Origin: Bacteroidota bacterium
GTDB taxonomy: Bacteria > Bacteroidota > Bacteroidia > Bacteroidales > Paludibacteraceae
Direction: 5' to 3'
NCBI GenBank assembly: GCA_030706455.1
Contig: JAUZOL010000001.1
Coordinates: forward strand, 1-64,000
Length of the DNA stretch: 64,000 bases
Both the position numbers and the translations under genes were made by a program. This document shows positions 11,692 through 35,088 of the stretch, piece after piece. Position 1 is the first letter of the stretch, and each line of letters starts with the position of its first letter. The notes beneath the pieces are model-generated. The model ran no database searches, was not told where the DNA came from, and was given only the letters and a program-made list of their open reading frames with translations.

Positions 11692-11760
11692 CAAATATAG
11701 AAGAGACATCTGAATAAAAAACCGAAGAAAATGACACTTTACATTCGGATTTTGACACAA
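11692..11760 (-). promoter_or_regulatory. Locus promoter and operator, copy A (TU1)
   Basis: Minus-strand TATATTTG at 11699-11692 fits TAnnTTTG. The upstream box is written here on the plus strand: CCGAAGAAAATGACAC (11722-11737) and ATTTTGACAC (to 11758), with the two TGACAC half-sites at 11732 and 11753, spaced 21 bp. The arms CCGAA (11722-11726) and TTCGG (11744-11748) also form an inverted repeat. No -33 element is present, as expected for an activator-dependent promoter. The box overlaps the stop codon region of the upstream GH127-like gene. Confidence 0.65.
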
Positions 11761-11764
11761 ACAC

Positions 11765-13819
11765 CTACCTGAATTTAAAGGAAATCCATGATTTTTCTGT
11801 CACAGGAAACATTGTTACTCTAAATTTCGCACATCCATAAGGCACTAAATCGACAGTTGCTTCTTTGCCATCCTTAATAGGAATTGCCGGAAGTGGCTGT
11901 GCATCTGTGGGATTCCAGTCAAACTCCTTTACCCTAACTTTTAACTGTATCGGGGCATCCAATTGCCAGAACCATTTTCCTGTCAATGTTTTTTTTATGA
12001 TTGCAATTTGGTTGGATAAATGGTCATGATCGATATCCAATGCATAATTGAATTTTGAATGTTCAACCTCTTGGTTAGGATTCACATCCGGTATTGGTAA
12101 TGCAAACAAAAGTGGTCCGTATGTCACACATTCGTATGGATTATGAATGGTTGTATCCGACGCATTTTTATAGCCTCCTTTTACAAAATAGTCAGTTTGC
12201 GGATAAATGGTTTCATATCCCTGCTGCACCTGCGCTTCCATAGGAAAACAAAGCTGAATTTTATCATTGGGATGCCAGGTTCGTGCAATTTTCACAAATC
12301 CTCTTTCTGCTTTTACTTCCACTTTCTTATTGTTTATCTTTATGGACGGATGAGCACACCATTCCGGAATTCGGAGATAAATTGGCATAGTGATTGCCTT
12401 CGACATTGTAAGCGTCATGTCAATATTATCATCGAAAGGATAAGTCGTATTACAATTGATAATGAGTTTTTCTTTTTTAATCTGTTTCTCTACGACACAT
12501 GGCCCATACAAAGTAGCTGCCAAGCCATTATCCATTGTTGCCATCCACATGCCACCGATATAGTCAGGAATAATATTGTTACAGTTTCCCACGCAGCATA
12601 AAACCTCATGACCATGATCGGTAAATTTCATATCATCCTTGCCCGGAATAACAGCTTCTTCGGGAAGCGTACTACTAAATCTGTTGAGTGACTGATAATA
12701 GCACATAGTTTTGAAATCACGCGCCATGGGAGCAGGGCCTGCATTGAAAAATATTTTTTCAATCTTATCACCCCAGTTTCTTTGGCCGGTCAAACGCATC
12801 ATCCATAAAAGCGACCACATAGAAGTCGGCACATCACAGGTTTCAATATTTCTAAAAGATCCTATTCCCGACAGGTATTCCTGGGAAGAACAGACTCCCA
12901 CAGGAAGCAAATTTTTACTTTCGCCCCATTCCAGAATTCTTTCTGAGGCATGAAGCTCCTTTATATTTCCAGTCCAGGAATACATCATGGCCGGCACTCT
13001 CAATGTTTCATAAAAAGTAACTCCATGATGGAAATCCGAAGAAACAACTCTTTTATGAAGCCATCTTTCTTCCTCATCAATAACACTTCGATTTTTGCCA
13101 TAGGCAATAATTTTATCAAGAATGGTTTTGTCCGCAGTTATAAGGTAAGTTTCCACCATCGCATCGATATTAGTTGCTCCCCGTTGCATACACTCGGTAG
13201 AGTCGCGGGAAACTCTTATCGGGAATGTTCTATACACCTTCTCAAGTGCTTGTCTTATTTCGGGTTTATGTGTAGCCTGATAATAGGAAACCAAAGCACG
13301 TCCCATAAGTCCATGTCCCCAATTATTAAACCAATCATTGACAATCGATTGAGGTTTCCAATAGATAAACGATTCACCTCCGTTCAATACACCATTGACA
13401 ACTATATCCAGACGTGAAGATGTTTTTCTGATCAGTGCTGTATCTTGTAGCATGTATCCTAATTTAACGGCCCCATCCAACCAGTAACTGCATTGTTCAA
13501 GCGGCCAACCCGTACCATCTTCATTCACGCCTCTTGCCTGAAACCCATAGCCCTTCCACCCATGTTTAAAAACATCTATGTATTCATCCAAATGTCCGGT
13601 GATCCCATTTGCAGCATCAGTAGCCCAATCTTTGAGCCAACCGGTTGGTTTTATATCACCCAACTCTAACGGAATAAAAGAAGGTAGAGCTTTTGCTGTT
13701 TTTGAATATACCTTCATCTTGTTTGCGGTATAATCAATACCCGGAGCATTTTGAGCATTTGCCTCCGACATTAAAATTGTCAGGGGCAAGAAAAAAACTA
13801 TCATTTTTAATGGTTTCAT
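11765..13819 (-). CDS. GH127-like (DUF1680) beta-L-arabinofuranosidase-type enzyme
   Basis: A 684-residue exported protein with signal peptide 1-22, an (alpha/alpha)6 catalytic domain to about 430, then beta-sandwich domains. The cysteine/metal centre of GH127 and its relatives is visible: Glu326-Thr-Cys328 in 'IETCDVPTSMW' and Cys408-Cys409 in 'VLCCVGNC'. In the characterised family member HypBA1 the equivalent Cys is the nucleophile and the others bind zinc. It most likely removes beta-L-arabinofuranose or a related pentose or deoxysugar. It is alone in TU2, with its own copy of the locus operator about 190 bp upstream. Confidence 0.78.
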   Translation of the reverse strand: MKPLKMIVFFLPLTILMSEANAQNAPGIDYTANKMKVYSKTAKALPSFIPLELGDIKPTGWLKDWATDAANGITGHLDEYIDVFKHGWKGYGFQARGVNEDGTGWPLEQCSYWLDGAVKLGYMLQDTALIRKTSSRLDIVVNGVLNGGESFIYWKPQSIVNDWFNNWGHGLMGRALVSYYQATHKPEIRQALEKVYRTFPIRVSRDSTECMQRGATNIDAMVETYLITADKTILDKIIAYGKNRSVIDEEERWLHKRVVSSDFHHGVTFYETLRVPAMMYSWTGNIKELHASERILEWGESKNLLPVGVCSSQEYLSGIGSFRNIETCDVPTSMWSLLWMMRLTGQRNWGDKIEKIFFNAGPAPMARDFKTMCYYQSLNRFSSTLPEEAVIPGKDDMKFTDHGHEVLCCVGNCNNIIPDYIGGMWMATMDNGLAATLYGPCVVEKQIKKEKLIINCNTTYPFDDNIDMTLTMSKAITMPIYLRIPEWCAHPSIKINNKKVEVKAERGFVKIARTWHPNDKIQLCFPMEAQVQQGYETIYPQTDYFVKGGYKNASDTTIHNPYECVTYGPLLFALPIPDVNPNQEVEHSKFNYALDIDHDHLSNQIAIIKKTLTGKWFWQLDAPIQLKVRVKEFDWNPTDAQPLPAIPIKDGKEATVDLVPYGCAKFRVTMFPVTEKSWISFKFR

Positions 13820-13972: not shown

Positions 13973-14038
13973 TAAAAATAGAGAAATCCGAGCATAATGA
14001 CCCGAAGAAAATGACATTTTTTCTTTCCATTTTGACAG
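13973..14038 (-). promoter_or_regulatory. Locus promoter and operator, copy B (TU2)
   Basis: The half-sites TGACAT (14012) and TGACAG (14033) on the plus strand lie 21 bp apart, preceded by CCGAAGAAAA (14002-14011). The -7 element TATTTTTA (13980-13973, minus) differs from TAnnTTTG at the last base. This is the weakest copy; the right inverted-repeat arm is lost. Confidence 0.5.
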
Positions 14039-14100
14039 AATAGATGACTCTTATAAAGTGACAATTCTCCATTTTTCAAATCCAAAAATGATCAAAAAAA

Positions 14101-14142
14101 AGAGGTGCAACAGGTTGTATTAAACAAGCCCGAAGCACCTCT
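14101..14142 (-). terminator. Intrinsic terminator of TU3
   Basis: AGAGGTGC (14101-14108) pairs perfectly with GCACCTCT (14135-14142), and further pairing is possible in the loop. On the minus strand the stem is followed by a T-run (plus-strand A-run just before 14101). It lies 19 bp below the GH3 stop. Confidence 0.65.
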
Positions 14143-14160
14143 TTATTGAATAGCTATGCG

Positions 14161-16653
14161 TTAATAAACAACCTTGGCTGTTGCTAAAATATCACGGGAA
14201 TTGGTACCCGCCTGAATTTCATATTGACCATGATCTACCACCCAACTGTTTTTCTGAACATCGAAATAAGAGAATGAACTGTCATCCAATGTAAAATCGA
14301 CCTTCACAGTCTGACCGGCCTTTACAAATACTTTCTTGAACGCTTTCAGTTCGTGAACCGGGCGGGTAACAGACGGAGCCAATGGTTTTACATAAACCTG
14401 AACCACTTCATAGCCATCACGTTTACCGATATTTTTTACCAGGACACTTCCTGTTGCTGCGTGACTACCATTCTTACTAACAACCATGTTTGCATATGCA
14501 AATGTAGTATAAGACAATCCGTAACCAAACGGAAATTGTGGTTTCACCTTCTTTGTATCATAATAACGGTAGCCAACCAGTAAACCTTCCTTATACGTAA
14601 CATTCAGCTGCTTTTCAGTATCGTAATAACTGTCGTGTGTGGGATTATCACTCCATTCTTTTTCGAACGTATCGGGCAATTTACCACTCGGATTGACTTT
14701 ACCAAACAAAATTTCGGCAAGAGCGGTTCCTCCTTCCTGACCTGTGTACCAGCCATGCAACAATCCTTTCACATTTGCCAACCAGGGTTGCATATAGATA
14801 TTGCCTCCGCCATTCAAAATAACGATGGTATTCGGATTGGCTTTAGCTACGGCATTAATCAATTCACTCTGACCGCCGGGAAGTTCAAATTTACGATCCT
14901 GACCTTCCTGTTCAAACTCACCATTAAATCCAACGCAAACAACTGCCACATCAGCAGACGAAGCTGTTTGCACTGCTTTTGCTATCGACTTTCCATTGTC
15001 GGCCCATCCCAAATGGATTTCGGCACCACCGGCACGATCATAGTATTCTAGTTTAACTTCATAAGTTTTTCCTGCTTCCATGGCAACAGCCCCTATTTGC
15101 TGTGTGGCCGGCTGATCTCTCCAGCCATCGATCACAAGTTTGCCATTTACCCAAAGACGGTAACCATCATCACCTTTTGCAACAAAAGTATAAACACTAC
15201 TAACCGACGAGCGGACAAATCCTGTCCAGCGGACAGAAAACCCATCTGACGGGAAGTCCTTTACATCGCTATTCGGAGTTCCGGTTCCCCAGTTGAAATC
15301 TATTTTTTCATCGGTACGCTTAAATGCGGGATCACCCGACAAAGTCATATTATTAAAATACTCGCCTTTGAGGCCCTTAGCACTACAATCCGCATCTGCA
15401 TAGAAAACCGCATTTTGAATCATCTCTCCCACATTCTGACTTTCGCTTACACAGTCGACACTCACTTTATTGCCAACCAGATTCTTTATTCCTTCGTATG
15501 TAGTTACACAATGAAAGGGCATAGTTTGTGAGCTTCCACCTCCAAATACATATTGATTGGCATTCGGTCCGACAACGGCAATCTTTTTAATTTTCGTATC
15601 GTTCAAAGGAAGAATATTCCCTTCATTTTTCAATAAGACAACGCCTTCCCTGGCCACTTTTAGAGCGACATTGGCACTGGCGGGATTATCCAAAGGAATA
15701 CGTTTATCCTGCTGTGAACGATCATAAAATCCGTAACGGAAGATAATTCTGAGGATACGGCTCACTTTTTCATCAATCAACGATTCAGAAATGACTCCGT
15801 TTTTAATAGCCGGAATCAAAGTGGCCCGGTTCATGTGGTCGCCCGATCCCATTTCAAGATCCAGCCCCCCTTTAGCGGCTGCAATTCCGTCATAAGTTGC
15901 CCCCCAGTCTGACATCAGGATTCCGTCGAAACCCCACATTTTTTTCAGAATATCATTATTTAAGTGACTGTTTTGGGTGGCATGTTCTCCATTGAGCAAG
16001 TTATAAGAATCCATTGCCGTAGCAACTTTTCCTTCCTTAACAGCAGCTTTGAAAGCAGGAAGATAAATCTCTTGAAAGGTTCGTTCATCAATATTAGAGC
16101 TGACCTTGTTACGATCCCATTCCTGTTCGTTTCCGGCATAATGCTTGATACAACCCGCTACTCCTTTACCTTGTAATCCTTTGATGTAAGCCACTGCCAT
16201 TCTTCCGGCCAGATAAGGATCTTCGCCCATATATTCAAAATTGCGACCACCCATAGGAGCACGACAAATATTCACCCCCGGAGCCAACAAAATATGCACG
16301 CCACGCGCGTGACAATCGGAAGCCAACGCTTCGCCCAGTTCTTTCAGCAGGCTCACATTCCAGGTCGATGCCGCTAAAACCGTCGCCGGATAAGCGGTCG
16401 ATTTACCGTCATTGCGTGACCCTACCGGTCCATCGCTCGTTTTAATGGCAGGTATACCCAAACGAGGTATAGCACGTATATAATAGTCATTTGCACCACC
16501 CAGATAGTCAATTTTCTCTTCCAATGTCATTTGAGAGAGTATCGACTTAATTCTCTTTTCAACAGGCTGTTTCGAATCCTTGTAGGCTTGTGAAAAAGCT
16601 ACCCCGGATACTAATAGCATAAAAAAACAAATACGCACGCATCTTTTCATCAT
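14161..16653 (-). CDS. GH3 beta-glycosidase with inserted PA14 domain
   Basis: An exported GH3 enzyme of 830 residues. The ATG at 16653 is chosen because it gives MMKRCVRICFFMLLVSGVAFS; an ATG at 16722 would add 23 residues with no purpose. 'CIKHYAGNEQE' and the nucleophile Asp249 in 'LMSDWGAT' mark the barrel. A PA14 carbohydrate-binding domain (about 445-580, 'LKGEYFNN', 'DDGYRLWVNGKLVIDGWRD') is inserted in the second domain, as in Kluyveromyces-type beta-glucosidases. The C-terminal Fn3-like domain is almost the same as that of the 17201-19750 GH3. It stands alone in TU3 with its own operator copy and a leader of about 340 nt. Confidence 0.87.
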   Translation of the reverse strand: MMKRCVRICFFMLLVSGVAFSQAYKDSKQPVEKRIKSILSQMTLEEKIDYLGGANDYYIRAIPRLGIPAIKTSDGPVGSRNDGKSTAYPATVLAASTWNVSLLKELGEALASDCHARGVHILLAPGVNICRAPMGGRNFEYMGEDPYLAGRMAVAYIKGLQGKGVAGCIKHYAGNEQEWDRNKVSSNIDERTFQEIYLPAFKAAVKEGKVATAMDSYNLLNGEHATQNSHLNNDILKKMWGFDGILMSDWGATYDGIAAAKGGLDLEMGSGDHMNRATLIPAIKNGVISESLIDEKVSRILRIIFRYGFYDRSQQDKRIPLDNPASANVALKVAREGVVLLKNEGNILPLNDTKIKKIAVVGPNANQYVFGGGSSQTMPFHCVTTYEGIKNLVGNKVSVDCVSESQNVGEMIQNAVFYADADCSAKGLKGEYFNNMTLSGDPAFKRTDEKIDFNWGTGTPNSDVKDFPSDGFSVRWTGFVRSSVSSVYTFVAKGDDGYRLWVNGKLVIDGWRDQPATQQIGAVAMEAGKTYEVKLEYYDRAGGAEIHLGWADNGKSIAKAVQTASSADVAVVCVGFNGEFEQEGQDRKFELPGGQSELINAVAKANPNTIVILNGGGNIYMQPWLANVKGLLHGWYTGQEGGTALAEILFGKVNPSGKLPDTFEKEWSDNPTHDSYYDTEKQLNVTYKEGLLVGYRYYDTKKVKPQFPFGYGLSYTTFAYANMVVSKNGSHAATGSVLVKNIGKRDGYEVVQVYVKPLAPSVTRPVHELKAFKKVFVKAGQTVKVDFTLDDSSFSYFDVQKNSWVVDHGQYEIQAGTNSRDILATAKVVY

Positions 16654-16997
16654 AAATAAAATTTTTATTCTCTCTGTTAATAATTTTCGTGTAAGACTCA
16701 GATAAAGTTCGCTCGATTGCAAATTTGCTTCAGTATAGTCATTATGAGCTGTATCATATCTTTCTTGTATAGCAAGAGACTCGAAATCTTTAGAAAATAT
16801 GACGATGCTTTAATAGCAAAGCAACAATTCTATCAATTACACATGCCAACAGAAATAGAGATCTCAAAACAGCTCATTATCAATACAATACAACGAACAA
16901 CAAACTATTATTGCCTTCAAATAAATATAGCCCACACACAAATAACTTCGATTGTATATTTTAGAGTTATTTTTTAATTTAGGTTAATTTCAGCATT
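16654..16997. other. Long 5' leader of TU3
   Basis: About 340 nt of AT-rich sequence between the predicted start near 16992 and the GH3 ATG. A small TCTTG/CAAGA hairpin lies near 16763-16777. No convincing coding frame is present on either strand. Confidence 0.35.
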
Positions 16998-17063
16998 CAA
17001 AGATACGGATATGTACAAAACACGACCTAAAGAAAATGACACTTCGCCTTTATATTTTGATAT
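16998..17063 (-). promoter_or_regulatory. Locus promoter and operator, copy C (TU3)
   Basis: Minus-strand TATCTTTG at 17005-16998 is a full -7 match. The box CCTAAAGAAAATGACAC (17026-17042) and TTTTGATAT (to 17063) carries half-sites TGACAC (17037) and TGATAT (17058), 21 bp apart. The distance from the -7 element to GAAAATGAC is 27 bp, as in copies B and D. Confidence 0.62.
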
Positions 17064-17115
17064 AAGCAAATTTTCAACAAGATCCGTAAGAAACGGACCT
17101 CATTATAGCAAACAA

Positions 17116-17151
17116 TGCCAGATGAGTGTGCTTTAAGACACCCATCCGGCA
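17116..17151 (-). terminator. Hairpin terminator of TU4
   Basis: TGCCaGATGaGTGT pairs with ACACcCATCcGGCA (12 pairs, two mismatches, loop of about 8). On the minus strand it runs into TTGTTTGC. It lies about 50 bp below the stop of the last TU4 gene. Confidence 0.5.
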
Positions 17152-17200
17152 TATGACCTGTATTATTTACTCAAGAAATAAATACAGCTACTTCTCAAAA

Positions 17201-19750
17201 TTAATAAACAGTCTTTACAGTAGCCAAAATATTCCGAGAGCTGGCACCCGCCTGAATTTCGTATCTCCCGTGATCTACCACCCAATCATTTTTTCCCGGA
17301 TCGAAATAAGAGAATGAACTATCATCCAACGTAAAATCGACTTTTACAGTTTGACCGGCTTTCACAAATACTTTTTTGAATGCTTTCAGTTCGTGTACCG
17401 GGCGTTCGACCGAAGGCGTTAGCGGTTTTACGTAAATTTGTACGACTTCATAGCCATCCCGTTTACTGGTATTTTTAACCATAAGGCTTCCCTTTACAGC
17501 ATGATTTCCTGCCTTAACCGCATTCATCTTTGTGTAAGCAAATGTTGCATAACTTAATCCGTAACCAAAAGGAAACTGAGGTTCAACTTGCTTGGTATCA
17601 AAATAGCGGTAACCGATCATCAGTTTTTCCGCAAAGTTAACCGCATCATGGTTCTGGCTTGCCAACTTCACGCAAGGGGAATCTTCCAGCTTTTTAGTCC
17701 AGGAAAAAGAGAGGCGCCCCGAAGGATCAATATCGCCAAACAACATTTTTGCAACTGCATTGCCACCTTCCATTCCCGGATACCAGGCTTCGGTCAGCGA
17801 AGCCACATTCGGAAGAAAACCTCCGACTTCAAGCGGCGATCCGTTGATTAAAACAACATTCACTTTCTTATTCAGGCCTGCAAGATGGTTGATTAGCTTT
17901 TCCTGAACCAGCGGAAATGCCAGGCTCACCCTGTCACGACCTTCGGTGTCAATGCTATGATCCAATCCACCGACATAAACAACGGCATCAGCTTCACGGG
18001 CAGCTTCGTCGATTTTGGTCAGTTGCATCTGCTGAAGAGACGATTCGGGCATTTCCCACTCGATACGCATGGCTGCGTCACCACTGCCTTTGGAGTAAAT
18101 TACGCACAAATGAAAAGGAACACCTTTTTTCAAATCGACAGCTGCCGTAACAGTTCCAGTGCCACGCCCCGGATCGGCAACTGCCATCGGAGCTCCAGCC
18201 CATTCGTTATTATAGACCAACGCCGAACCACCGCCGGTGATAAACCGGAAGGTATACTTTCCGTCGACCGGAGGCATAATTTGTGCATCAAAACGGGCTT
18301 CGCGAAATTGATCGACCGGAATCGACGGATCGGGAGACTTCATTTCCCACATAAAATTCACATTCGATTCGGTTCGTTCCAATACCGGTTCGTTCTTTCC
18401 CTTAACGTAATAGCAGGTATGGAATCCGTTCTTTCCGCCAACAGAGCTTAACACATTTTCCGGAATCAACTGATAGCCTCCCAAATCGTCGGACGATATA
18501 TAGTTAACGCGATCTGCTCCGAGTTCGTTTTGAATTCCTTTCAGAACTGTGATTTCGTAAGGCGATTCAACCCAGGAACTTCCGCCCATGGCCAGCAAAC
18601 AAAAACGTTTGTCGGCATTAGGACCCGTTACCAAAACCTTCTTTACTGTCTGTTTGTTAAGAGGTAACGCATTATTCTTGTTTTGTAATAAAATAATTCC
18701 TTCTTCGGCTGTGTGTAAGGCGGTTTGTTGATGTTCCTTTGTATTAATAGAAGCTCCTGCACTCAAATCACGGCCATCGAGCAAGCCAATCCGGCCATAT
18801 ACGCGCAAAATGCGTCGTACTTTCTCATCTACAACACTGACGGGCACTTTCCCTGCTTTTACCGCTTCGAGCAAAGGAGTACCGAACCCACAATTGTCGC
18901 CACCCGGCATCGAAACATCCAGTCCGGCAAAAGCAGCTTTTTCAACCGAACGGGTTTGCAGCCAGTCGGTCATCACAAAGCCGTCGAACCCAAAACGGTT
19001 TTTCAGAATATCCGTCAGCATTTTTTTACTATCGCTCACAAATTCGCCATTCACACCATTGGCTGAGGTCATTACTGTCCATACATTTGCGTCCCTGACA
19101 GCAGCTTTAAATCCCGGAAGGTAAATTTCGTTCAGGGTACGGTCGTCAATCATCGACATGTAAAAATTGCGGTTGTCTTCCCGATTGTTGCAGGCATAGT
19201 GTTTGATACAGGCAGCCACGCCTTCGCTTTGGATACCCCGAATTTGAGCTGCAGCAATTGCTCCGTTCAGCAGGGGATCTTCGGTATAATATTCAAAAAA
19301 ACGTCCGTTAAGCGGATCACGCAAAATATTACACCCCGGACCCAAAAGAACCCCACGTCCCATCGCACGGGTTTCTTCTCCTATTACCTTACCTGCTTTT
19401 TCTACAATAGAAGGATTCCAGGTGGATCCGAATAAGATGCCGGCCGGAAACGCAGTTGTCCCCACCTGGCAATTGGGTCCACGAGGACCATCAGTACAAG
19501 CTGTACCCGGAATTTTGAGTCGTTCCACTCCTTTAAATCCTCCATTTCCCGAGCACATAGCTACCTTTTCCTCGATGGTCATTTGCTTCAGGATAGCCTC
19601 CACCTTTTGTTCAAGTGCTTGTGCTGAGTTTTTTCCAGGCTGCGCAAACATCTGAAAGCATGAGCAAACGCTAATAGCCAATACTACCGGCAATACAATA
19701 TTTCTCCGCTTCATTTTTCCTGCATTCATATTTAGAATTCTCATTTTCAA
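17201..19750 (-). CDS. GH3 beta-glycosidase with PA14-like domain
   Basis: An 849-residue exported GH3 enzyme, last gene of TU4. 'CIKHYACNN' (181-189) and nucleophile Asp262 in 'FVMTDWLQT' mark the barrel. A PA14-like insert (about 440-570, 'VDGKYTFRFITGGGSALVYNNEWAG') lies within the second domain, and the C-terminal Fn3-like domain (from about 745) is nearly identical to that of the 14161 GH3. The catalytic barrels of the two differ much more. The start at 19750 lies 8 bp below the upstream stop; an ATG at 19714, preceded by AGGAAAA, gives a shorter signal peptide. The sequence VCSC at 28-31 could be a lipobox, but weakly. Confidence 0.86.
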   Translation of the reverse strand: MKMRILNMNAGKMKRRNIVLPVVLAISVCSCFQMFAQPGKNSAQALEQKVEAILKQMTIEEKVAMCSGNGGFKGVERLKIPGTACTDGPRGPNCQVGTTAFPAGILFGSTWNPSIVEKAGKVIGEETRAMGRGVLLGPGCNILRDPLNGRFFEYYTEDPLLNGAIAAAQIRGIQSEGVAACIKHYACNNREDNRNFYMSMIDDRTLNEIYLPGFKAAVRDANVWTVMTSANGVNGEFVSDSKKMLTDILKNRFGFDGFVMTDWLQTRSVEKAAFAGLDVSMPGGDNCGFGTPLLEAVKAGKVPVSVVDEKVRRILRVYGRIGLLDGRDLSAGASINTKEHQQTALHTAEEGIILLQNKNNALPLNKQTVKKVLVTGPNADKRFCLLAMGGSSWVESPYEITVLKGIQNELGADRVNYISSDDLGGYQLIPENVLSSVGGKNGFHTCYYVKGKNEPVLERTESNVNFMWEMKSPDPSIPVDQFREARFDAQIMPPVDGKYTFRFITGGGSALVYNNEWAGAPMAVADPGRGTGTVTAAVDLKKGVPFHLCVIYSKGSGDAAMRIEWEMPESSLQQMQLTKIDEAAREADAVVYVGGLDHSIDTEGRDRVSLAFPLVQEKLINHLAGLNKKVNVVLINGSPLEVGGFLPNVASLTEAWYPGMEGGNAVAKMLFGDIDPSGRLSFSWTKKLEDSPCVKLASQNHDAVNFAEKLMIGYRYFDTKQVEPQFPFGYGLSYATFAYTKMNAVKAGNHAVKGSLMVKNTSKRDGYEVVQIYVKPLTPSVERPVHELKAFKKVFVKAGQTVKVDFTLDDSSFSYFDPGKNDWVVDHGRYEIQAGASSRNILATVKTVY

Positions 19751-19758
19751 TACAATAA

Positions 19759-21537: not shown

Positions 21538-21574
21538 TTCATTCTATTTGATGGTTTATCTCATTTATATTAAG

Positions 21575-25592: not shown

Positions 25593-25651
25593 ACAATTCT
25601 ACATTAGTTTTTCAGCGGTTGCCCCTATTTCAACGGGCAAATGTGCTTCCT

Positions 25652-27679
25652 TCACTTTACTTCAACAACGCGAAGCAATTTCGCTTCCGGCGCTTTTTTA
25701 AAGGTAAATCTCAATCCCTCATCCAACAACCGGGCACCATCATACCGGCGACTCTCATTCGTTTCTAAATCGATGATACGGTATTGTTTTTCTCTGTTCA
25801 ACCCTTTTAACCGGCATAGATCTGAATCACATATCGATTCTGGTCGGTTAAATATTTGGATAAATCCGGTTCCCTTTTCAGGGCAAAAGAATTCCCAACC
25901 AATCCAAACATTCTTTTCAAGGCTGTAAGGTGTTAAAGGATAATAGTCGCCCCGGTAATCATCCCGTACCTCTTTCCATTGTGCCAACAACCGGCGAAGC
26001 AAGGGATAATCGGCAGTTTTGTTTCTTACATCCAGATTGAGCACCGTGGACGGACTCATATTGCTTAGAAAATCGTAGGTATTGATGCTGTTTACACCTG
26101 CACCTGAGAAAGGAATCCAAGACGATAATCCGTAGGTCTGGCCCTGCACGCCGATAGGTTCGAAGGCATAATCGCTTCTCCAAAGCGGAACGGCTCGTCT
26201 CAGGTTTTCCATTTCCAACCGTTTTCCTCCGGCAGCACAGATATCGATAAGCATGTCGGGATGGCGTTTCCGCAATTCGTCGAGGTACTTTAGGTATCCG
26301 ACAACATGTTTGATCTCGGCAATTCCCTGCCGATCGGGATATTTTTGATCCTCTTCGTTCCAATAGGAAGAGGAAAAAACCGCAAAATCCTGACGATACA
26401 AATCAATCGTCTCACTCGTCAGCACACTATCCACATGGTTTGTCATCCAGGCAAGGGCTTCAGGATTTCCATAATTGAAAAAACGAGTCGATCCCGACCC
26501 CAGGGTCCATTCCGGATGATTGTTATAAATCCAGCTTCCTTCGGTTACCCTTTCCGGTTCAAACCACAGGATTGTTTTTTCGCCTTTGGAGTGGGCATGA
26601 TCACTGATGGCTCGCAGTCCATTCGGATATCGTTTTTTGTCGGGCACCCAGGTTCCCAGAAAATCCTGCCAACTGCCGCCTTTATTAGGATACCAGCCGG
26701 CATCCATCCACCAATAATCGAGCTTGATTCCCTCTTCGAGAAAACGGTCGATGAATTCTATCTCGTCTTTGTCGGTCGCATGAAACATTTCGGCAAAATA
26801 TGCCGAGCTGGCAGCTTCCAGGATCGGCTCGGGCAATTTACCTCCCGGCCGGGGAAGGTTGTAATCGAACATCCAGCGACGCCACATATTTTGAGCCTCA
26901 TCATGAGACCCTTGCCAAAACATAAGCACCACCAGCGGAGTACGTATCTCTTCACCCGGATTCAGATACAACCTGGTTTTAATTTGTCCAACTTTAACGG
27001 TCATAGCAGTATTAACCGAACGATCGAAAGTGGACTGCCACTGCGCCGGCCAGCCTACCGCGCTGATTACTCCCTGCTTCCCGGAATTCCATTCGGCGTT
27101 GAAAAACGGCAGAGTTTCGGCAGTTGGGAAACCACCCCAGAATGCTCCGAATTTTTGAGGCGTCTGCGGATCTATTTTCACCCGGTTGGGCTTAAAATCT
27201 TTCGGTCCCGAATTTCCGCCTTCGTTATAATTTAGATAAAGATCATCGTGCCCGCCCAAATCGAACGGAACATTCAGGGCCTGCAAGTTTTCGATAATTC
27301 CGGTTCTTGATTTTCCCGTATTTTTAAGGTAAACGACCCATTCCACTGCCGGATAGTCGGCATACCGGACCATTTCACAACGCACTTCCAACCCGCTTAC
27401 CGGATCAGTATAGATACGAACCTCCTGCTTACGGTCATTGCTCAATCCTTTAGATTGGAACTGCATTTTGCATTTTGCCAGAAATTTATCCGACGATATG
27501 CCTTCGTAAGTAAAACTAAACGGCAAGGCATCGCTTTGAGCAAATTCCTTATCAGTCCATTGCTGACAGGCGGCCATTTCTTCAGGAGACACATTGGAAT
27601 GGGTCTCTGTATTTTTAGCCAATACACCTGAAGAAAAGTAAATCCAGATTGTCAGGAGAAAAAAAAGATCCTTTTTCAT
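25652..27679 (-). CDS. GH36 alpha-galactosidase
   Basis: A 675-residue exported GH36 enzyme. 'YWWMDAGWYPNKGGSW' (322-337) and 'ILWFEPERV' (370-378) are classic barrel signatures. The nucleophile is Asp431 in 'LYRQDFAVF' and the acid/base is Asp503 in 'LWRSDYAF'. 'DICAAGGKRLEMENLRRA' precedes the latter. It should cleave terminal alpha-galactosides in the periplasm. It begins 10 bp after the GH106 stop and precedes another GH36, so TU4 encodes two different clan GH-D enzymes side by side. Confidence 0.85.
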   Translation of the reverse strand: MKKDLFFLLTIWIYFSSGVLAKNTETHSNVSPEEMAACQQWTDKEFAQSDALPFSFTYEGISSDKFLAKCKMQFQSKGLSNDRKQEVRIYTDPVSGLEVRCEMVRYADYPAVEWVVYLKNTGKSRTGIIENLQALNVPFDLGGHDDLYLNYNEGGNSGPKDFKPNRVKIDPQTPQKFGAFWGGFPTAETLPFFNAEWNSGKQGVISAVGWPAQWQSTFDRSVNTAMTVKVGQIKTRLYLNPGEEIRTPLVVLMFWQGSHDEAQNMWRRWMFDYNLPRPGGKLPEPILEAASSAYFAEMFHATDKDEIEFIDRFLEEGIKLDYWWMDAGWYPNKGGSWQDFLGTWVPDKKRYPNGLRAISDHAHSKGEKTILWFEPERVTEGSWIYNNHPEWTLGSGSTRFFNYGNPEALAWMTNHVDSVLTSETIDLYRQDFAVFSSSYWNEEDQKYPDRQGIAEIKHVVGYLKYLDELRKRHPDMLIDICAAGGKRLEMENLRRAVPLWRSDYAFEPIGVQGQTYGLSSWIPFSGAGVNSINTYDFLSNMSPSTVLNLDVRNKTADYPLLRRLLAQWKEVRDDYRGDYYPLTPYSLEKNVWIGWEFFCPEKGTGFIQIFNRPESICDSDLCRLKGLNREKQYRIIDLETNESRRYDGARLLDEGLRFTFKKAPEAKLLRVVEVK

Positions 27680-27689
27680 TTTTACATGA

Positions 27690-30600
27690 TCAATACTTCA
27701 CACTCGACACTGTAACTGGGCCGAACAATCCAGAAGGTTGCAATTTGCTGTCTGCACTATAAGGATTCACCGAGCACCAGGTTGGACGTTGGTTTTCAGG
27801 CAATTTAAAATCACCGATCAGACGGTTCATCCATGTATTAACCACCTCTATCTTTATTTCATTGTTGCCCTTTTTGATTGCTTTTGAAATATTGACCTGA
27901 TACGGAGGAGTCCATACTCCACCAACGTAAACCCCGTTAATCCAAACTTTAGCCATTGCAGTCAGATTTCCCAGGTCAACAATTACCTGATCCTTACCCG
28001 GCAATTTGCTCAGGTTAAATTGCCCGTTATAGATTGCCGTACCCGAATAATATTTTATTCTGTCATCCGAAGAGGTAGTCCAGTCCTGCAAAGAGTTGAA
28101 AATTAAAGGTTTTTCAGGTCCTCTCTGAGTTGCGTCAAACTGAACTCTCCACGGGCCTTTCACATCCGTCAACACAACCGGAGTCGGATAATTGCCTTCG
28201 ATACCATAGAGTTTGGATGCAACTGCTTTTTTGCGAAATACCACGAAAGTACTTTCATATGGAGCCAGTTTTAATGGAACAGCTGTCGCATTTTCCGTTT
28301 GTTCAAAAGCCGGAAGGATACGCACAGCGCCTGTGGTTGCAGTCCAAAGCTCCGGTTGCAAACCCTTTACTCTAAATTCAGGAGTAATCAATTTTGTTTC
28401 TTCTGACTGGTTGCTAACAAAATAAACTTCACCATCGTTCATTGTCCGGTGTCCAAAATGAATGCTGCGGTCTTCGGGCAGTTTGCAATCGGGTGCGCAG
28501 TGAATCAAATCGAAAGCTTCTTTCATGCTCACACCGTTCATAATCATCCCCTTGCCATAATTACGCGATTTTACCTTTACGCCATCAACGTCACCCCATA
28601 GTTCAGACGCCAGCGCCTGTACCTGTTGGTCGGCTGCTGGTTGGTTTTGCAGACTGGGCGAACGGCGTGGTGCCGGACCAAGGACTACCGCTCCATCGTT
28701 GACCAGTTGTTTGATTTTTTCCAGCAATTCGGGACGCATGGTTTCCAGTTTCGGCAAAACCAAAATCCTGTATTGTGTACCATGAGGCAAGGTTATCAAG
28801 CCTTTTTTAACCGTCATCTGTTTTTCAATGACTTCTGCATTCATATAATCGAACTGATAACCAACAGGAAGAGCCGGATCAGTGATTCCTGTCATTTTTG
28901 GGGTATCCTCGCCAATAAAATAAGCTGCATCGGCCACATTCAAGCCCTGTTGCAACATATAATTTGTTCGTTTCAGATAGTCGATAAAAACATCCAGTTG
29001 AGAAAACCATGTATTTTTTCTGTTGAACTCATTCCCGAAAGACGCATTTACGCCCGGCGTTTTTTCTTCATAAGGCTGACTGATATAAACATGCAAAAGA
29101 GTATTATTGATACCTTCGGCAAAGAAACGGTCACTGCGCTGTTTGAACATGGCAGGATAACGGCTGAAAGCGGGACCTCCGCAGGTATTCGATTCTGCCG
29201 AAATTTTTGTTTTCCCGTAAATATGACCACACGAAGTAGCTGCTCGGTTCTCAATATTACCCAGCTCGCCTTCGCTCCAGAATTCGCCGCCAATCTCATC
29301 CGACTGACCTCCGTACATCAAAAATTCGCTCGGGAACCCCCAATGTCCGTAACATTCGAGCCAGGTATGCAGGCCGTGCTTATGGCTGATGTCTCTCAAT
29401 CCACCTACGTAATCGTAAGCAACCTTGTCGGCAACCATTCTACGCACGTCCCACAAAAAGCGGTCGGAGGCTTGTTCACTTTCCACCACAAAACCCCTGT
29501 AAACCGGTAGGAAAGGAACAGGATCGTATCCATAGCGATGTTTGAATTCAGCCAGAAAACCATCGGTGAAATTTTGTCCACCTGTCTCATAGCTATCTTC
29601 AACCACCACTTTGAAAGTTTTCCGGTCAGCCTCCGGAATTCGTTTTAGTATTTCGCCCAAATATCCGTAGAAATGTTTTTCCACGTGTTGCTTACTCATC
29701 TTGTCCACTTCATATCCGGTAGCCTCGGGCGATGCGGGTGCATTTTTGGTGCCGGTAGGTGTCATGCCGGTACGCATTATTACCCAATTGCCTGCGGGCA
29801 CATTCCATGTCAATGTTCCGTCCGAAGCAAGGTTTGCTGTCAGGTCTACCACCTTTGAGGGATCAATCACTGTTGATTTATCATTGGGTTCCGGTTGTTT
29901 TGTCCACTGGTATTCGTTCCAGTAAGGCAACGGCACCTGATGCATTTTTGCCAATGTTTTTTCGGGGTAACGTTCCACCTTAGGAGCAGATGAAAGTTCT
30001 ACTTCGGCTAATCCGTTACTACTATTTATTCCCTTCACAATTACACGGAAAGAAGTTGCTGTTACGGCTGGAAAAGAGACAACAATCGGAGCATACGGAT
30101 CAAAACCCACGTTCAGTGCGTCGTTGTAACGGTTTATCTGAAATTCGGCAATCGTACGGTAGCTTCCATTGGCCTCTTTCACCTGCAAAACGGCAGGATT
30201 GTTAATCGGACTTGCAATTGGCGCAATAGAAAGACTACGGGCTGTAAATGGAGCTTTTGCCGTAATATCTAACGTAAAATCGCCTTCGGCCGGAAAATGG
30301 GAACCAGTCTTACGATCACGGTCAACAATGGTGGAAAGATCTGATACTTCCGGTAACGAATGTAATGTCGCAATACGGTTATCCAGCATCAGCTGTGCAT
30401 CCTTAGGTTCGGGGTACGCAATCACTTTGACATCCTGAAAGAGAGCAATCGGTTTTTCGAGCTTTTGGCTGAATTTCTGAGGACCTTTCAAATGGAGTTC
30501 CGAAGCTGTCAGGTAACGCATGGCATTCTCGGGTTTTACCCACGGTCCACCGGATTGACTCCATCCCGGAGAATTGAAAATTCCGATCTCGATATTCAGA

Positions 30601-30932
30601 TCGGTCGCCGTCTTCAGCGCTGCATGGAGGATATCCCACCATTCATCGCTAAAAATTTTCACCTTCCCATAAGGCACATCATCTTGCCCGATATAACCGA
30701 TAAAGGCCCGGTTGATCCCCGCTTTTTTCATTGCCTGAAGATCTTTGACTACCCCTTCTCTGGAAATATTATCTGAAATCCAATACCAGTAAACGCTGGT
30801 TTTCATCGAATCGGCAGGCACCTTAAAACCTTGTTCAAATCCTCCGGCAGCAACAGTCGAACTACTCATCGGCCATCCCATCAATAGTAGCAAAAGTGTC
30901 AATCCGGCTGTCAGCAATGCATTTTTCTTCAT
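27690..30932 (-). CDS. GH106 alpha-L-rhamnosidase
   Basis: A 1080-residue exported protein matching GH106 over its length. It has a signal peptide to about 29, then the barrel with 'VYWYWISDNISREGVVKDLQAMKKAGINRAFIG' style opening and 'SPGWSQSGGPWVKPENAMRYL'. The central 'VVEDSYETGGQNFTDGFLAEF' carries a conserved Glu near 440, followed by a long barrel half. The last 140 residues form a galactose-binding-like sandwich ('AKVWINGVYVGGVWTPPYQVNI'). GH106 enzymes use calcium and remove alpha-L-rhamnose from rhamnogalacturonan II, arabinogalactan or flavonoid glycosides. Third gene of TU4; it follows the second GH71/GH99-like gene after a gap of 137 bp. Confidence 0.85.
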   Translation of the reverse strand: MKKNALLTAGLTLLLLLMGWPMSSSTVAAGGFEQGFKVPADSMKTSVYWYWISDNISREGVVKDLQAMKKAGINRAFIGYIGQDDVPYGKVKIFSDEWWDILHAALKTATDLNIEIGIFNSPGWSQSGGPWVKPENAMRYLTASELHLKGPQKFSQKLEKPIALFQDVKVIAYPEPKDAQLMLDNRIATLHSLPEVSDLSTIVDRDRKTGSHFPAEGDFTLDITAKAPFTARSLSIAPIASPINNPAVLQVKEANGSYRTIAEFQINRYNDALNVGFDPYAPIVVSFPAVTATSFRVIVKGINSSNGLAEVELSSAPKVERYPEKTLAKMHQVPLPYWNEYQWTKQPEPNDKSTVIDPSKVVDLTANLASDGTLTWNVPAGNWVIMRTGMTPTGTKNAPASPEATGYEVDKMSKQHVEKHFYGYLGEILKRIPEADRKTFKVVVEDSYETGGQNFTDGFLAEFKHRYGYDPVPFLPVYRGFVVESEQASDRFLWDVRRMVADKVAYDYVGGLRDISHKHGLHTWLECYGHWGFPSEFLMYGGQSDEIGGEFWSEGELGNIENRAATSCGHIYGKTKISAESNTCGGPAFSRYPAMFKQRSDRFFAEGINNTLLHVYISQPYEEKTPGVNASFGNEFNRKNTWFSQLDVFIDYLKRTNYMLQQGLNVADAAYFIGEDTPKMTGITDPALPVGYQFDYMNAEVIEKQMTVKKGLITLPHGTQYRILVLPKLETMRPELLEKIKQLVNDGAVVLGPAPRRSPSLQNQPAADQQVQALASELWGDVDGVKVKSRNYGKGMIMNGVSMKEAFDLIHCAPDCKLPEDRSIHFGHRTMNDGEVYFVSNQSEETKLITPEFRVKGLQPELWTATTGAVRILPAFEQTENATAVPLKLAPYESTFVVFRKKAVASKLYGIEGNYPTPVVLTDVKGPWRVQFDATQRGPEKPLIFNSLQDWTTSSDDRIKYYSGTAIYNGQFNLSKLPGKDQVIVDLGNLTAMAKVWINGVYVGGVWTPPYQVNISKAIKKGNNEIKIEVVNTWMNRLIGDFKLPENQRPTWCSVNPYSADSKLQPSGLFGPVTVSSVKY

Positions 30933-31069
30933 TTTGTATCGATTTAATAAATTGTATATTATCAGAATTGAAACTGCTCTTACGTTCGAATGCTGAAGCT
31001 AAAGTCTAAGTAAAATTTGAACTTAACAAAAGAGCGAAAAGTCCATTTATTCGTACATTAAATAACAGC

Positions 31070-32881
31070 TTATTTTTCAGAATAAATAAAATTGAAACGA
31101 CCGCCCGGAGCAGTATCTCCATTAACGTAAAAGTCCATGATATTGCCGTTTTCCTGCATGTTATCATTCCATTTGAACTCAAAGTTGAGTGATTTGCCTA
31201 CAACATTCAGCACGCTTCTCGGAATGGCAATTTCAAGTTTGTTGCCGTTGACAGCAAATTTTGCTTCTGCTGTAGTTGCCCATTCCCAACGATTGCCTAC
31301 ATTCTTTTCAATAAACACTTTATTCCCTTTTGGGCTAACACGATTGATAATAAAATCATAGCCATTCCAACCAGTCGATTTATCACGGTCTGCATCGATA
31401 AACAACATCATCCAGTTTCGGTCGGTTTTCGGAGTCAAGGCATCGGCGGTTTCTACGTAGAAGTAAACATTCTCGTCATCACGGGCAACCTTAGCTCCTT
31501 CTATATCATTACGTCCTGTATTGTTGCGATAATACTGGTCGTAGCGTCCGCGATGATCCCTATGCATCGTATTACCTTTATAATGGGCAAAATAGGGTAA
31601 AACATCGTTCCAGTCATTGGTTTTCCCGATTTTGATGGTTTTGGGAGACGATATTTTTTGAGGAGGTGTCATCCCCTTGAATTTCCGCACCTGATCGACC
31701 AATTGCATGTAATATACGTCGCCCTTATCGCCCCAGCCTTTGTTAGGTTCTATATCGCGACTATGCTCCCAGTCAAACTGATCGACAAATGAGAAAGGCT
31801 TTCCTGTCCATCCATGTATAGGCAACCATTGTCCTGCAGTATATTCATTCCAGCCTGTTACGAAAACCAATTCCGGGTCAAGCTCAAAAGCGCGATCCCA
31901 TTGTTCCATAAAATTCCAGCCATAGAGATAACCCTCAACTCTCGGGTCAAAGCCATTGCGTTGGCTGAAGCTACGACCATACGATCCCGGCAGATTAAAC
32001 GCGCTGCAATGTCCTTTGGTCTCCGGACTGGCATTCTGCGCAATGCCTACCGTTACCTGCTCGTACTTGCCGTTCGGTTGTTTCACATAGCCATGTTGAG
32101 GATAATTTTCAAGCCAACCCCACTGATCGTTACGCGAAGGACCGTCCACGTAATCAGGTTGTCCCGGACGGAATGTAAAAAAAGCAGCGATTTCTTTGTC
32201 TTCGGGAGAATCCGTCAGGTTATCGGGATAGCCCATGATGCAGGGTTTTCCTTTCCAGTAAAACCAGAGATTTTTGTAGCGCCCCGGTTTGTAAACATCG
32301 CGGTACAACTGACGCAGGGAGGTAAGGCCGTGAGGAACCGGTCCGAAAGGAAGCATATAGGCAATATGAGGAACATTCACGCCATCCTTCTGTGCCTGAT
32401 CCCAGGTTTTCAGCAAAGCTTCATACGACTCTTTCCAGGTGAGATCGCCATTGGTGCAGTCGAAGAAAACGGCATCGACACCGGCGTCGGCAAGCATTTC
32501 AGCATGTTTGCGCAATACCCAGGGATCGGTTGTCTTATAGTAGCCCAGCAAAGGTTGTTCCCAAAAGAAAAAACCGGGTTGTTTGTTTCCCCATGCCGGG
32601 TGATGGTAATCCTTCATGGCTTCGGGATATTTGCGTACAATTTCGGTGATATTCTTCACCTGATAGGTCGTATCATCGTCTCCCTGATGCCATGTCCAAT
32701 AGAAAATTGCCACGAATTTATCTTTCTTCTTATCTCCGGCATCACGGTACTCTCTCACTTTCCGACCCAGTGCGTCGGTTGCAGCCCATTGGTCACTGAC
32801 TGTCTGTTGAGCCAATAGTTGTCCCGCAAATAAAAAAAGAAACAATATTGCTGCATTTAAGGCTAACTTTTTCGTATTCAT
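31070..32881 (-). CDS. GH71/GH99-like TIM-barrel protein with CBM9-like C-terminal domain (paralog 2)
   Basis: A 603-residue exported protein. The ATG at 32881 gives MNTKKLALNAAILFLFLFAG, a good signal peptide; an ATG at 32968 would add 29 residues overlapping the upstream gene. It keeps 'ATDALGR', 'VAIFYWTWH', 'FWEQPLLGYY' (Glu108), 'MLADAGVDAVFFDCTNG', 'AFFTFRPGQPDYVDG', 'GWLENYPQHGY' and 'TGWNEYTAGQW' (Glu346). A CBM9-like domain (about 390-600) ends 'MDFYVNGDTAPGGRFNFIY'. It is much closer to the 56562 paralog than to the 21616 one. Activity unknown, probably an alpha-glycan hydrolase. Second gene of TU4, 25 bp below the GH127-like gene. Confidence 0.62.
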   Translation of the reverse strand: MNTKKLALNAAILFLFLFAGQLLAQQTVSDQWAATDALGRKVREYRDAGDKKKDKFVAIFYWTWHQGDDDTTYQVKNITEIVRKYPEAMKDYHHPAWGNKQPGFFFWEQPLLGYYKTTDPWVLRKHAEMLADAGVDAVFFDCTNGDLTWKESYEALLKTWDQAQKDGVNVPHIAYMLPFGPVPHGLTSLRQLYRDVYKPGRYKNLWFYWKGKPCIMGYPDNLTDSPEDKEIAAFFTFRPGQPDYVDGPSRNDQWGWLENYPQHGYVKQPNGKYEQVTVGIAQNASPETKGHCSAFNLPGSYGRSFSQRNGFDPRVEGYLYGWNFMEQWDRAFELDPELVFVTGWNEYTAGQWLPIHGWTGKPFSFVDQFDWEHSRDIEPNKGWGDKGDVYYMQLVDQVRKFKGMTPPQKISSPKTIKIGKTNDWNDVLPYFAHYKGNTMHRDHRGRYDQYYRNNTGRNDIEGAKVARDDENVYFYVETADALTPKTDRNWMMLFIDADRDKSTGWNGYDFIINRVSPKGNKVFIEKNVGNRWEWATTAEAKFAVNGNKLEIAIPRSVLNVVGKSLNFEFKWNDNMQENGNIMDFYVNGDTAPGGRFNFIYSEK

Positions 32882-32906
32882 GTTTTTCGTATCTGTTATG
32901 GTATAA

Positions 32907-34664
32907 TTAATGGTGATCCTGACTGAAGAGAAGTTGCTTCTTATATGCCCCGCTACAAACCTTTGCATCCATCAGATGATAAACCGGGGTAAGCTGGATA
33001 CCGGTTCCTTCAATTTGAAAGCCACCATTGTCCATTCTGACTACTTTAGCTGACCGTGGAACTTCAATTTCTGCATCTCCTTCATAACCCAGCAACAACG
33101 GGCCATAGAAAAGGCGACTCTTACCAGTTGGTGTGTGCGTCACATTCGCTACAGTTTCAACGCCCGACTTCATTGTAAATGAATATTCAATTTTATCGCC
33201 GGCTTTACATTTCGCAGATACGATGACAAACTGATTTTTCACCTCAAACTTCACAGGTTGCCCGTTAACAGTGACCACGGGTTGTTTTATCCAAGAGGGG
33301 GCAAACAACTTTAGTGTCATCGTTCCCGGTTTCTGCATTTTATCAATTGTCAGAACAACTTTATTTCCGAATGGATATTCCGTTTTCTGACTAATGGTTA
33401 CCGAAGAATCTTTCTGGTTTACATCCACACTTCCAGTGTAAAATGAAGGAACAACCAGCGTATCTTTATTCTGAAACCAGCTATACTCCACTGCACGAGC
33501 CAGACCTTCACCTCCACGCATGGTGCAACACCAGAAGGCCTCATCCGCTTTCACCGAAACAGCATTATCTACCGGACCGGGACAATTGTCGCATCCGAAG
33601 CCGCCATTTGCACGTTGTGTATGCCCTATTGCGTTGTAATAGATCAGGTGGGCATCTTCCATGTATTTGGGCGATTGCGTATGTTGCCATAGCTGTACGG
33701 CCAACAGGTAAGAATCGACAATAGCGCAAGGTTCGGTCCACTCGGGACGTTCAAACCAGTTGAAATTTTCATAATTTTCAGTCATTGCCAACTCTCTGTA
33801 TAATTTGTAGCGTTTCTCAACTTCGGGCAGCAAATCCTTTCTTCCGGTAATCTCCGCATACCTCAAAACAGCACGCAAACCGGTCAGTGTGGCATGAGTC
33901 TGGGCCTTCATGCCAACCAGATCCATTTCGAGAAAACGGGCGATCATTTCATCAACCAACGATTTCAATCGTGCTGAAGGAAAAAGTCCATAGGCCTGCA
34001 CCACCCCATCCATAAAAATAAAATCGCACCCCACATCAGTAGAGAGTTTCCATCCTTTTACCACATTGGCCGCTGAACCCGACATACCTCCTGTTCCGGC
34101 AACCCTCTCCGCAGGGTTAATCGGATATTCTTTATGATGTCCGGCTGTTGTCAATACCAGATTGTTGATAATTTCTATGATATATGTCTTTACTTTCGGG
34201 TCTTTCTTCCAGAGGTAATACTCGCACAGTCCGCGCAACAACCAGCCATGCCCCGAAAGCTGTTGCTCATCGATTGTTTCTCCCTGAACAGCGCCCAGAT
34301 AACCTTTTTTATTCAACTTTTCGGGGAATATCCGAATCATCTCATCCAGATATTTGGGTGTGCGGTGAGTTGCTCTGGCCTCCATCACCAGCCCCAGAAT
34401 GGTGCGGCCTTCCTTATCGCCCGGCCAGTCGGCAGAAGAAGGATGATGTTTTGCCGGAAATACATTTTCGGGGTAATAGATGTCAGTTTCCAAACGATCA
34501 AAATTCTTCGTTGCCCGTTGATACAACTCTCCGCTAACTTTTACCCGTTCAAATCCCACCGGTTTAAGTTGTTCCGGATTTTTCCCGGAAACAAACATAG
34601 TCAGCACCGAGCACAGAAATGCACACAAAAATTTATAATTCAGCATCTTATTCAACAATCTCAT
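32907..34664 (-). CDS. Divergent GH127-superfamily beta-L-arabinofuranosidase-like enzyme
   Basis: A 585-residue exported protein, first gene of TU4. Its (alpha/alpha)6 domain keeps the cysteine centre of the GH127 superfamily: Glu311-Pro-Cys313 in 'WTEPCAIVDSYL' and Cys379-Cys380 in 'FWCCTMRGGEG'. An extra 'CDNCPG' pair (358-361) precedes it. The C-terminal half is beta-sandwich ('LFAPSWIKQPVVTVNGQPVKF'). It is shorter and quite different from the 11765 gene product, so it likely belongs to another branch (GH137-, GH142- or GH146-like group not decided). Substrates in the superfamily are beta-L-arabinofuranosides. The leader is about 350 nt and the locus operator lies beyond it. Confidence 0.68.
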   Translation of the reverse strand: MRLLNKMLNYKFLCAFLCSVLTMFVSGKNPEQLKPVGFERVKVSGELYQRATKNFDRLETDIYYPENVFPAKHHPSSADWPGDKEGRTILGLVMEARATHRTPKYLDEMIRIFPEKLNKKGYLGAVQGETIDEQQLSGHGWLLRGLCEYYLWKKDPKVKTYIIEIINNLVLTTAGHHKEYPINPAERVAGTGGMSGSAANVVKGWKLSTDVGCDFIFMDGVVQAYGLFPSARLKSLVDEMIARFLEMDLVGMKAQTHATLTGLRAVLRYAEITGRKDLLPEVEKRYKLYRELAMTENYENFNWFERPEWTEPCAIVDSYLLAVQLWQHTQSPKYMEDAHLIYYNAIGHTQRANGGFGCDNCPGPVDNAVSVKADEAFWCCTMRGGEGLARAVEYSWFQNKDTLVVPSFYTGSVDVNQKDSSVTISQKTEYPFGNKVVLTIDKMQKPGTMTLKLFAPSWIKQPVVTVNGQPVKFEVKNQFVIVSAKCKAGDKIEYSFTMKSGVETVANVTHTPTGKSRLFYGPLLLGYEGDAEIEVPRSAKVVRMDNGGFQIEGTGIQLTPVYHLMDAKVCSGAYKKQLLFSQDHH

Positions 34665-35021
34665 CTTTTATTTCTTATCGTTTTAGGTAATTGCTTATTA
34701 CTATCAATTATTCTGAAATCAAATACGTCTTTCAGTCTGTTCGAATTATCTGACCGCCATGTTCATTTTCACCATACGTTTTCATGCTTAGCTCAAATCG
34801 CTTTCCCAATCCTGCTATACTACTATAAACAAAGAAATTACATCTTTTAAAAACGCTATATTCACAAGGATTACAAACTGGTTTTATTCTGAAAAATTTG
34901 AAATGAAATTTCAGAATCACCATGTTTATTTTTTAATTTACAGCGAATTATCTTAATACAAACGAGAGGGAAATATCATTAATGAACAAAAACAATTATC
35001 TTGATTATAAAAAAAATCATA
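34665..35021. other. Long 5' leader of TU4
   Basis: About 350 nt without a protein frame. ATTCTGAAA (34886-34894) and TTTCAGAAT (34909-34917) form a perfect 9-bp inverted repeat, with more weak pairing in the loop. No riboswitch is recognised. Confidence 0.35.
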
Positions 35022-35088
35022 CAAAATTAAAAATATGACAGTGAAAGCACCTAAAGAAAATGACACTTTACATTTAGATTTTGACACA
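35022..35088 (-). promoter_or_regulatory. Locus promoter and operator, copy D (TU4)
   Basis: Minus-strand TAATTTTG at 35029-35022 is a full -7 match. The box CTAAAGAAAATGACAC (35051-35066) and ATTTTGACAC (to 35087) has both half-sites perfect (TGACAC at 35061 and 35082, 21 bp apart). CTAAA and TTTAG (35073-35077) form an inverted repeat at the same positions where copy A has CCGAA/TTCGG. This is the best-kept copy. Confidence 0.68.

Follow-up and report, generated by a model that had tools for sequence, protein, structure and literature searches.

Candidate RhaR-type operators at four glycosidase units in a large Bacteroidota polysaccharide-utilisation cluster

We identified one two-part box upstream of four transcription units in a 64-kb stretch of DNA (the window), which forms the first 64 kb of the 272-kb contig C1 in a draft genome of 4.0 Mb and 340 contigs. 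With a probability that we put at about 0.86, the four boxes are operators of a RhaR-type one-component activator of the AraC family that is encoded outside the window. Judged from its sequence, the locus is best read as an expansion of the RhaR regulon: L-rhamnose inside the cell would activate 13 genes located distally in a very large (~117 kb) polysaccharide-utilisation cluster. Because the four boxes share their sequence with the operator of the genome's own rhamnose genes, L-rhamnose, sensed inside the cell, is most likely to turn on part of this cluster. Glycan clusters in Bacteroidota are mostly considered to be controlled by regulators whose genes lie within or next to them. The likely regulator is encoded here on another contig, and is revealed only by the operator sequence common to the rhamnose isomerase promoter.

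Four boxes and the units behind them

In promoter orientation, the box reads TRTCAAAAT-n12-TGTCATTTTC, and both direct reading and a scan find it four times in the window, always on the minus strand and with half-sites 21 bp apart in all four copies. Three boxes match this consensus exactly; the third in order of position has TATC instead of TGTC, its single mismatch. Dinucleotide shuffling of the window, repeated 100 times, gave a mean box count of 0.06 and a maximum of 1, so that four were never reached. Box 1 (TGTCAAAAT-n12-TGTCATTTTC, a 21-bp direct repeat) occupies positions 11727-11757 and by position drives the genes from 11437 down to 5327. The other predicted RhaR-type operators, likewise located by scan and motif score, are box 2 (14007-14037, driving 13819 to 11765), box 3 (17032-17062, the copy with the mismatch, driving 16722 to 14161) and box 4 (35056-35086, driving eight genes from 34664 to 17201).

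At all four promoters, a -7 element of the type TAnnTTT(G) starts 57-58 bases after the box start, also on the minus strand: TATATTTG at 11692-11699 (offset 58), TATTTTTA at 13973-13980, with its last base off consensus, TATCTTTG at 16998-17005 and TAATTTTG at 35022-35029 (offset 57 for the last three). We looked for a -33 element using the TTTG-type consensus. None was seen at the usual place at the four box promoters, where the downstream end of the proximal half-site sits instead. An earlier note on this DNA had described the same box at four separate transcription units, the exact 21-bp spacing, the near-fixed distance to a -7 element with one last-base mismatch, the missing -33 element and a set of at least 13 downstream genes, and each of these observations is borne out, the gene count by the open reading frame map (3+1+1+8).

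The units, assigned from this map and Pfam, are all on the minus strand. Unit 1 (5327-11437) encodes a GH31 protein (8786-11437), a GH3 protein (6456-8759) and an APH-family kinase-like protein (5327-6412); unit 2 (11765-13819) is a single gene for a GH127-family protein, and unit 3 (14161-16722) a single gene for a GH3 protein with a PA14 domain. The eight genes of unit 4 (17201-34664) encode, in transcription order, a GH127-like protein, a protein with no Pfam match, a GH106 alpha-L-rhamnosidase, a melibiase/GH31-like protein, a melibiase-like protein below the cut-off, a second protein with no Pfam match, a rhamnosidase six-hairpin protein and a GH3 protein with a PA14 domain. Judged by eye, 12 of the 13 proteins have export-signal-like N-termini, the exception being the APH-family protein.

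All four boxes are intergenic, and boxes 2, 3 and 4 are each preceded by a terminator-like hairpin on the minus strand. Box 4 is separated from the upstream gene (ending at 35342) by a perfect inverted repeat with 14-nt arms and a T-run after it (35243-35281), box 3 from the end of unit 4 by a hairpin of 15 pairs (17115-17152), and box 2 from the end of unit 3 by an inverted repeat with 13-nt arms, 92% complementary and followed by a T-run (14096-14147). About 8 bases lie between the unit 2 stop codon and the start of box 1. An Rfam scan of the window gave no match.

Four similar copies within 24 kb might also represent a repeated element without regulatory function, a recent duplication or a mobile sequence, which we regard as extremely improbable. 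Pairwise comparison of 370-base pieces around the boxes found in-register similarity over 36 bases at 94% between the 35086 and 11757 boxes, over 46 bases at 87% between the 35086 and 17062 boxes, and over only 12-15 bases for the remaining pairs, and all other matches between the pieces were 10-15 bases long and out of register. Since the in-register similarity is confined to the box and a few bases, the boxes did not arise by recent duplication of one segment, and, since it stops at about the box edges, they are conserved against an unconserved background. The fixed distance to the -7 element, the intergenic position of all four copies and the location of three of them just after terminator-like hairpins likewise argue against such an element, as does the genome-wide distribution of the box described below.

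The box at rhamnose genes in this genome and its relatives

Across the whole genome, the rigid box with up to three mismatches has 16 matches, compared with 2 for the reversed control, and with up to two mismatches only five, namely the four window boxes and one at C299:14719. The latter is located directly upstream of a gene for L-rhamnose isomerase (PF06134), inside which contig C299 ends, and faces away from a divergent gene for an AraC-family protein of 307 aa that carries AraC_binding and HTH_18 domains. This RhaR-like one-component regulator gene (G000:C299:13300-14223) thus lies outside the window on another contig. The genome scan for the box together with its -7 element, which the earlier note had suggested as a check, used the pattern TRTCAAAA-n13-TRTCA-n29..33-TAnnTTT and returned six matches in 4.0 Mb and none for the reversed control: the four window boxes, the L-rhamnose isomerase promoter and C299:2555. 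Hence, there are only two further matches, both at rhamnose genes, contrary to what a repeated element would suggest. The box at C299:2555 precedes the neighbouring operon, which encodes a 710-aa protein without a Pfam match, a GH106 rhamnosidase, a small protein, a DUF4450 protein and a GH88 protein, and the GH88 gene, the last of the operon, ends beside rhaR. A direct-repeat operator, a box at the genome's own rhamnose gene and an adjacent AraC-family regulator, three features of a RhaR-type system, are all present.

The four units might be controlled not by RhaR itself but by a paralogue, another one-component regulator of the AraC type with a specificity like that of RhaR; the 29 HTH_18 (AraC-type) matches in the genome and the two or three RhaR-like proteins found in each of four relatives would fit such a regulator. 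However, a single protein of this genome resembled RhaR at E 1e-60 or better (with 11 of 31 first-look candidates scored), and the two boxes nearest rhaR have the motif common to the window boxes, so that we consider a paralogue highly unlikely. In the NCBIfam comparison, the genome's RhaR-like protein had only AraC-family matches, far below their cut-offs.

The association of box and RhaR extends to the family. Among 200 family genomes, the box with its -7 element has 63 matches, in 42 genomes, against 7 for the reversed control, and RhaR-like proteins (E 1e-60 or better) are encoded in 46. Both are present in 32 genomes, including the one studied here, the box only in 10, RhaR only in 14 and neither in 144 (Fisher p about 1.3e-17, a nominal value since the genomes are related). 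Accordingly, 14 of the 46 RhaR genomes have no strict box match, and 10 of the 42 box genomes have no RhaR match, to be read against the chance level given by the 7 reversed-control matches; in one of these 10 (G207), the site lies before a kinase-like gene. The 57 sites outside the genome studied here most often precede a rhamnose isomerase gene (23) or an FGGY-kinase gene (10, rhamnulokinase-like, with products 58-88% identical to the Pfam-checked L231 copy). Five precede relatives of the 710-aa protein (four 62-92% identical over ~700 residues, and one shorter frame 42% identical over 214), one a GH78 rhamnosidase gene, one a hybrid two-component system (HTCS) gene, two susC (one of them 432 bases off) and eight other genes or genes without a Pfam match, and for the remaining seven there is no gene of 100 aa within 400 bases downstream.

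The 710-aa protein itself (L081:2656-4788), which has neither a Pfam nor an NCBIfam match, is thus preceded by a box and has boxed relatives in four congeners, one congener genome having a second, shorter related frame. We consider it a candidate rhamnose-related enzyme.

In congener G007, one box lies before a GH78 rhamnosidase gene and another before a 712-aa gene, downstream of which two susC/susD pairs begin after a gap of 410 bases; because of the latter arrangement, the genome studied here is not alone in having RhaR-type boxes close to genes for glycan uptake. In another relative (L273, G171:C5:344000-356400), a box is found 274 bases upstream of an HTCS gene, with an integrase gene adjoining, an arrangement that would place an HTCS under RhaR control. 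In a third (L262, G212:C11), a RhaR-like gene is divergent from susC with a box in between, and possibly represents a RhaR relative dedicated to a glycan cluster.

The box can also be learned from rhamnose promoters of other genomes. A search of genome contigs with RhaR yielded 77 loci, the four most distant of which (L155-L158) were left out of the motif work; a rhamnose isomerase match was present in 43 loci. We examined 42 of these, and in 41 the upstream sequence was long enough. The repeat TRTCA-n16-TRTCA occurs within 250 bases upstream in 17 of the 42 isomerase regions, in every case with TAnnTTT at offset 57 or 58, and is missing from 25, many of which have a coding frame just upstream. 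We built a matrix from 16 distinct isomerase-upstream boxes, none from the genome studied here, chosen with the pattern of the earlier note in mind. On both strands of the window, this matrix ranks the four boxes first to fourth (24.6, 24.4, 23.0 and 22.1), followed by a site at 10.3. In 60 simulated windows, the best site averaged 10.9 and one single site reached 23.8, whereas the fourth-best never exceeded 10.0.

Because the selection of the matrix had used this pattern, we also ran an unseeded EM search. With 40 upstream regions, it returned a conserved coding segment and not the box. A second run on 16 regions, after dropping the 25 of 41 with an open frame just upstream, produced the motif TGTCAAAAAnCAAAG...TATCATT, with a site in 14 regions, which is the box in 12 and something else in 2 (L130 and L131). 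This unseeded motif again ranks the window boxes first to fourth, at 27.0, 24.9, 24.1 and 22.0 bits, with the fifth site at 7.7.

The cluster, its hybrid two-component system and the boxed block

The main open reading frames from ~5.3 kb to ~122 kb on C1 are on the minus strand and form the ~117-kb cluster, with the boxed units (5327-34664) at its distal end. Inside the window, most of the Pfam-scanned frames of the cluster match glycoside-hydrolase families. Past the window, the family search covered susC/susD-like genes, and HTCS genes were taken from whole-genome domain searches. There are three susC/susD pairs on this part of C1, at 66-76 and 117-122 kb. At C1:123083-127102, 59 kb past the window, a single open frame that matches Reg_prop and HTH_18 encodes an HTCS at the head of the cluster, where it adjoins a susC/susD pair. 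The whole-genome HTH_18 and HTCS-propeller searches gave no match inside the window.

The earlier note had read the direct half-sites, which precede a Bacteroidota-type -7 element and are spaced by two helical turns, as AraC-type sites defining one regulon, and this is supported; it had included hybrid two-component systems among the activators that bind such sites, and for the boxes here this is not supported. The boxes could be operators of the HTCS at C1:123083-127102, a periplasmic sensor of glycan fragments that would activate the cluster. This HTCS is encoded on the same contig beside a susC/susD pair, and the HTCS motifs described for B. thetaiotaomicron in PMC3878776 are direct repeats at an average distance of 21 bp upstream of glycan-degradation operons, just as the two half-sites are here. 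However, the same box lies in the same register before rhamnose isomerase genes in this and other genomes, as well as at FGGY-kinase genes, and co-occurs with one-component RhaR. Moreover, the two 20-kb stretches that hold the HTCS and its neighbouring susC promoter contain no RhaR-type box by either the matrix (best scores 7.3 and 9.1, compared with 22-25 for the four boxes) or the unseeded motif (7.8 and 9.2). We therefore reject the HTCS as the first-choice binder and consider it improbable as the regulator of the four units, although it might possibly bind the RhaR boxes as well. The regulator is most likely an intracellular one-component sugar sensor, unlike those of HTCS regulons.

An operator of the HTCS itself was sought at two susC promoters; only weak repeats were found, those at the susC promoter beside the HTCS having 10/14 matches at periods 22, 21 and 20, and we claim no HTCS operator. 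A weak RhaR-like site at C1:76611 (minus strand), upstream of the susC gene 73105-76287, scores 14.6 bits with the matrix and 9.8 with the unseeded motif, and is not counted as a further box.

Comparison with congener G005 bears on the history of the boxed block. Two genes flanking it here are kept in G005 (1528-2178 at 95% and 3610-4584 at 86%), spaced ~7.5 kb apart there and 1.4 kb here, and orthologs of three genes from the middle of the cluster (89074-91191, 91953-94403 and 109022-111061; 89-94% identity) adjoin the ortholog of 3610-4584. The proteins of the four boxed units have no match at E 1e-30 in the 39 kb of G005 examined, and the genome has two boxes only, neither at the matching place. 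Hence, a RhaR-boxed block is present here and absent at the matching place in G005, being either gained here or lost there. For the GH127 protein of unit 2 (11765-13819), no ortholog was found in 199 other genomes of the family (E 1e-80) or in 394 other genomes of the class (E 1e-100).

A binning error affecting C1 is unlikely, given that the two flanking genes match one neighbourhood in a congener. The 1528-2178 gene has no match in 5 of 7 congeners. Beyond the HTCS, the plus-strand genes at C1:128761-163115 (L079 and L080) resemble a defence or mobile island on visual inspection and include those for relaxase-like and ParA-like proteins.

The cluster head, where the susC/susD pair next to the HTCS lacks a box, is probably under HTCS control, and one large locus would therefore have two inputs. 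We give an even chance to a fuller version of this split, in which the HTCS would sense glycan fragments at the susC head of the ~117-kb cluster and RhaR free intracellular L-rhamnose at its tail, and a monosaccharide regulon would have captured a lineage-specific enzyme block, as it seems to have done because the boxed block is present here and absent in G005. If so, the order of steps in dismantling the glycan would be encoded in the type of promoter.

Possible mechanism and published regulons

Under the RhaR reading, cytoplasmic L-rhamnose would bind the N-terminal AraC_binding/cupin domain of RhaR, and a RhaR dimer would bind along one face of the DNA with both half-sites occupied. Taking the place of the -33 element, the proximal half-site would recruit RNA polymerase to the -7 element, in a class II-like mode of activation. 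Rhamnose freed by the cluster's own rhamnosidases could then induce more glycosidases, mostly exported judging by their N-termini, along with rhamnose catabolism, which would amount to a feed-forward loop.

The operator type and RhaR are already known. In Bacteroides, motifs of AraC-family RhaR are direct repeats with a 21-bp periodicity according to PMC3870299, and the RhaR regulon (BT3768) is described in PMC3878776 as a single operon for a transporter and cytoplasmic enzymes. The system described here resembles that regulon in having a one-component AraC-family regulator beside rhamnose catabolic genes and a 21-bp direct-repeat operator, a likeness of periodicity and not one of base-by-base comparison. 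It differs in its apparent reach, which extends to a GH106 operon and, in a large polysaccharide cluster, to four glycosidase units. Rhamnosidases co-regulated with rha genes are mentioned for some other phyla in PMC3870299. In B. thetaiotaomicron, according to PMC11669328, RhaR overexpression raises transcription of the rha operon, and an rhaR deletion still grew on rhamnose, so that RhaR is not strictly required there.

Monosaccharide sensors with reach into extracellular glycan degradation have been described in B. thetaiotaomicron, namely AraR of the NrtR family and ManR of the GntR family; according to PMC3878776, each reaches one extracellular/uptake operon, AraR sharing its operon with an HTCS. 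The predicted regulon is like these in the kind of signal, and unlike them in the protein family and in its extent (four units and a GH106 operon). Thus, compared with what PMC3878776, PMC3870299 and PMC11669328 describe, the target set is unusually wide, and a search by title of the open-licence PubMed Central literature found no report of RhaR control of Bacteroidota glycan clusters.

Finding a 21-bp direct repeat in a glycan cluster of Bacteroidota is not, on its own, enough to indicate an HTCS. Learning a box at a monosaccharide operon and then scanning clusters with it yields, here, L-rhamnose as the candidate inducer of the 13 window genes, 3 of which have no Pfam match above the cut-off. 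Large proteins of the cluster that have neither a Pfam nor an NCBIfam match are encoded in the window at 21616-23682, 31070-32968, 39127-41109 and 47667-48929, and the first two, both from unit 4, may be new glycosidases.
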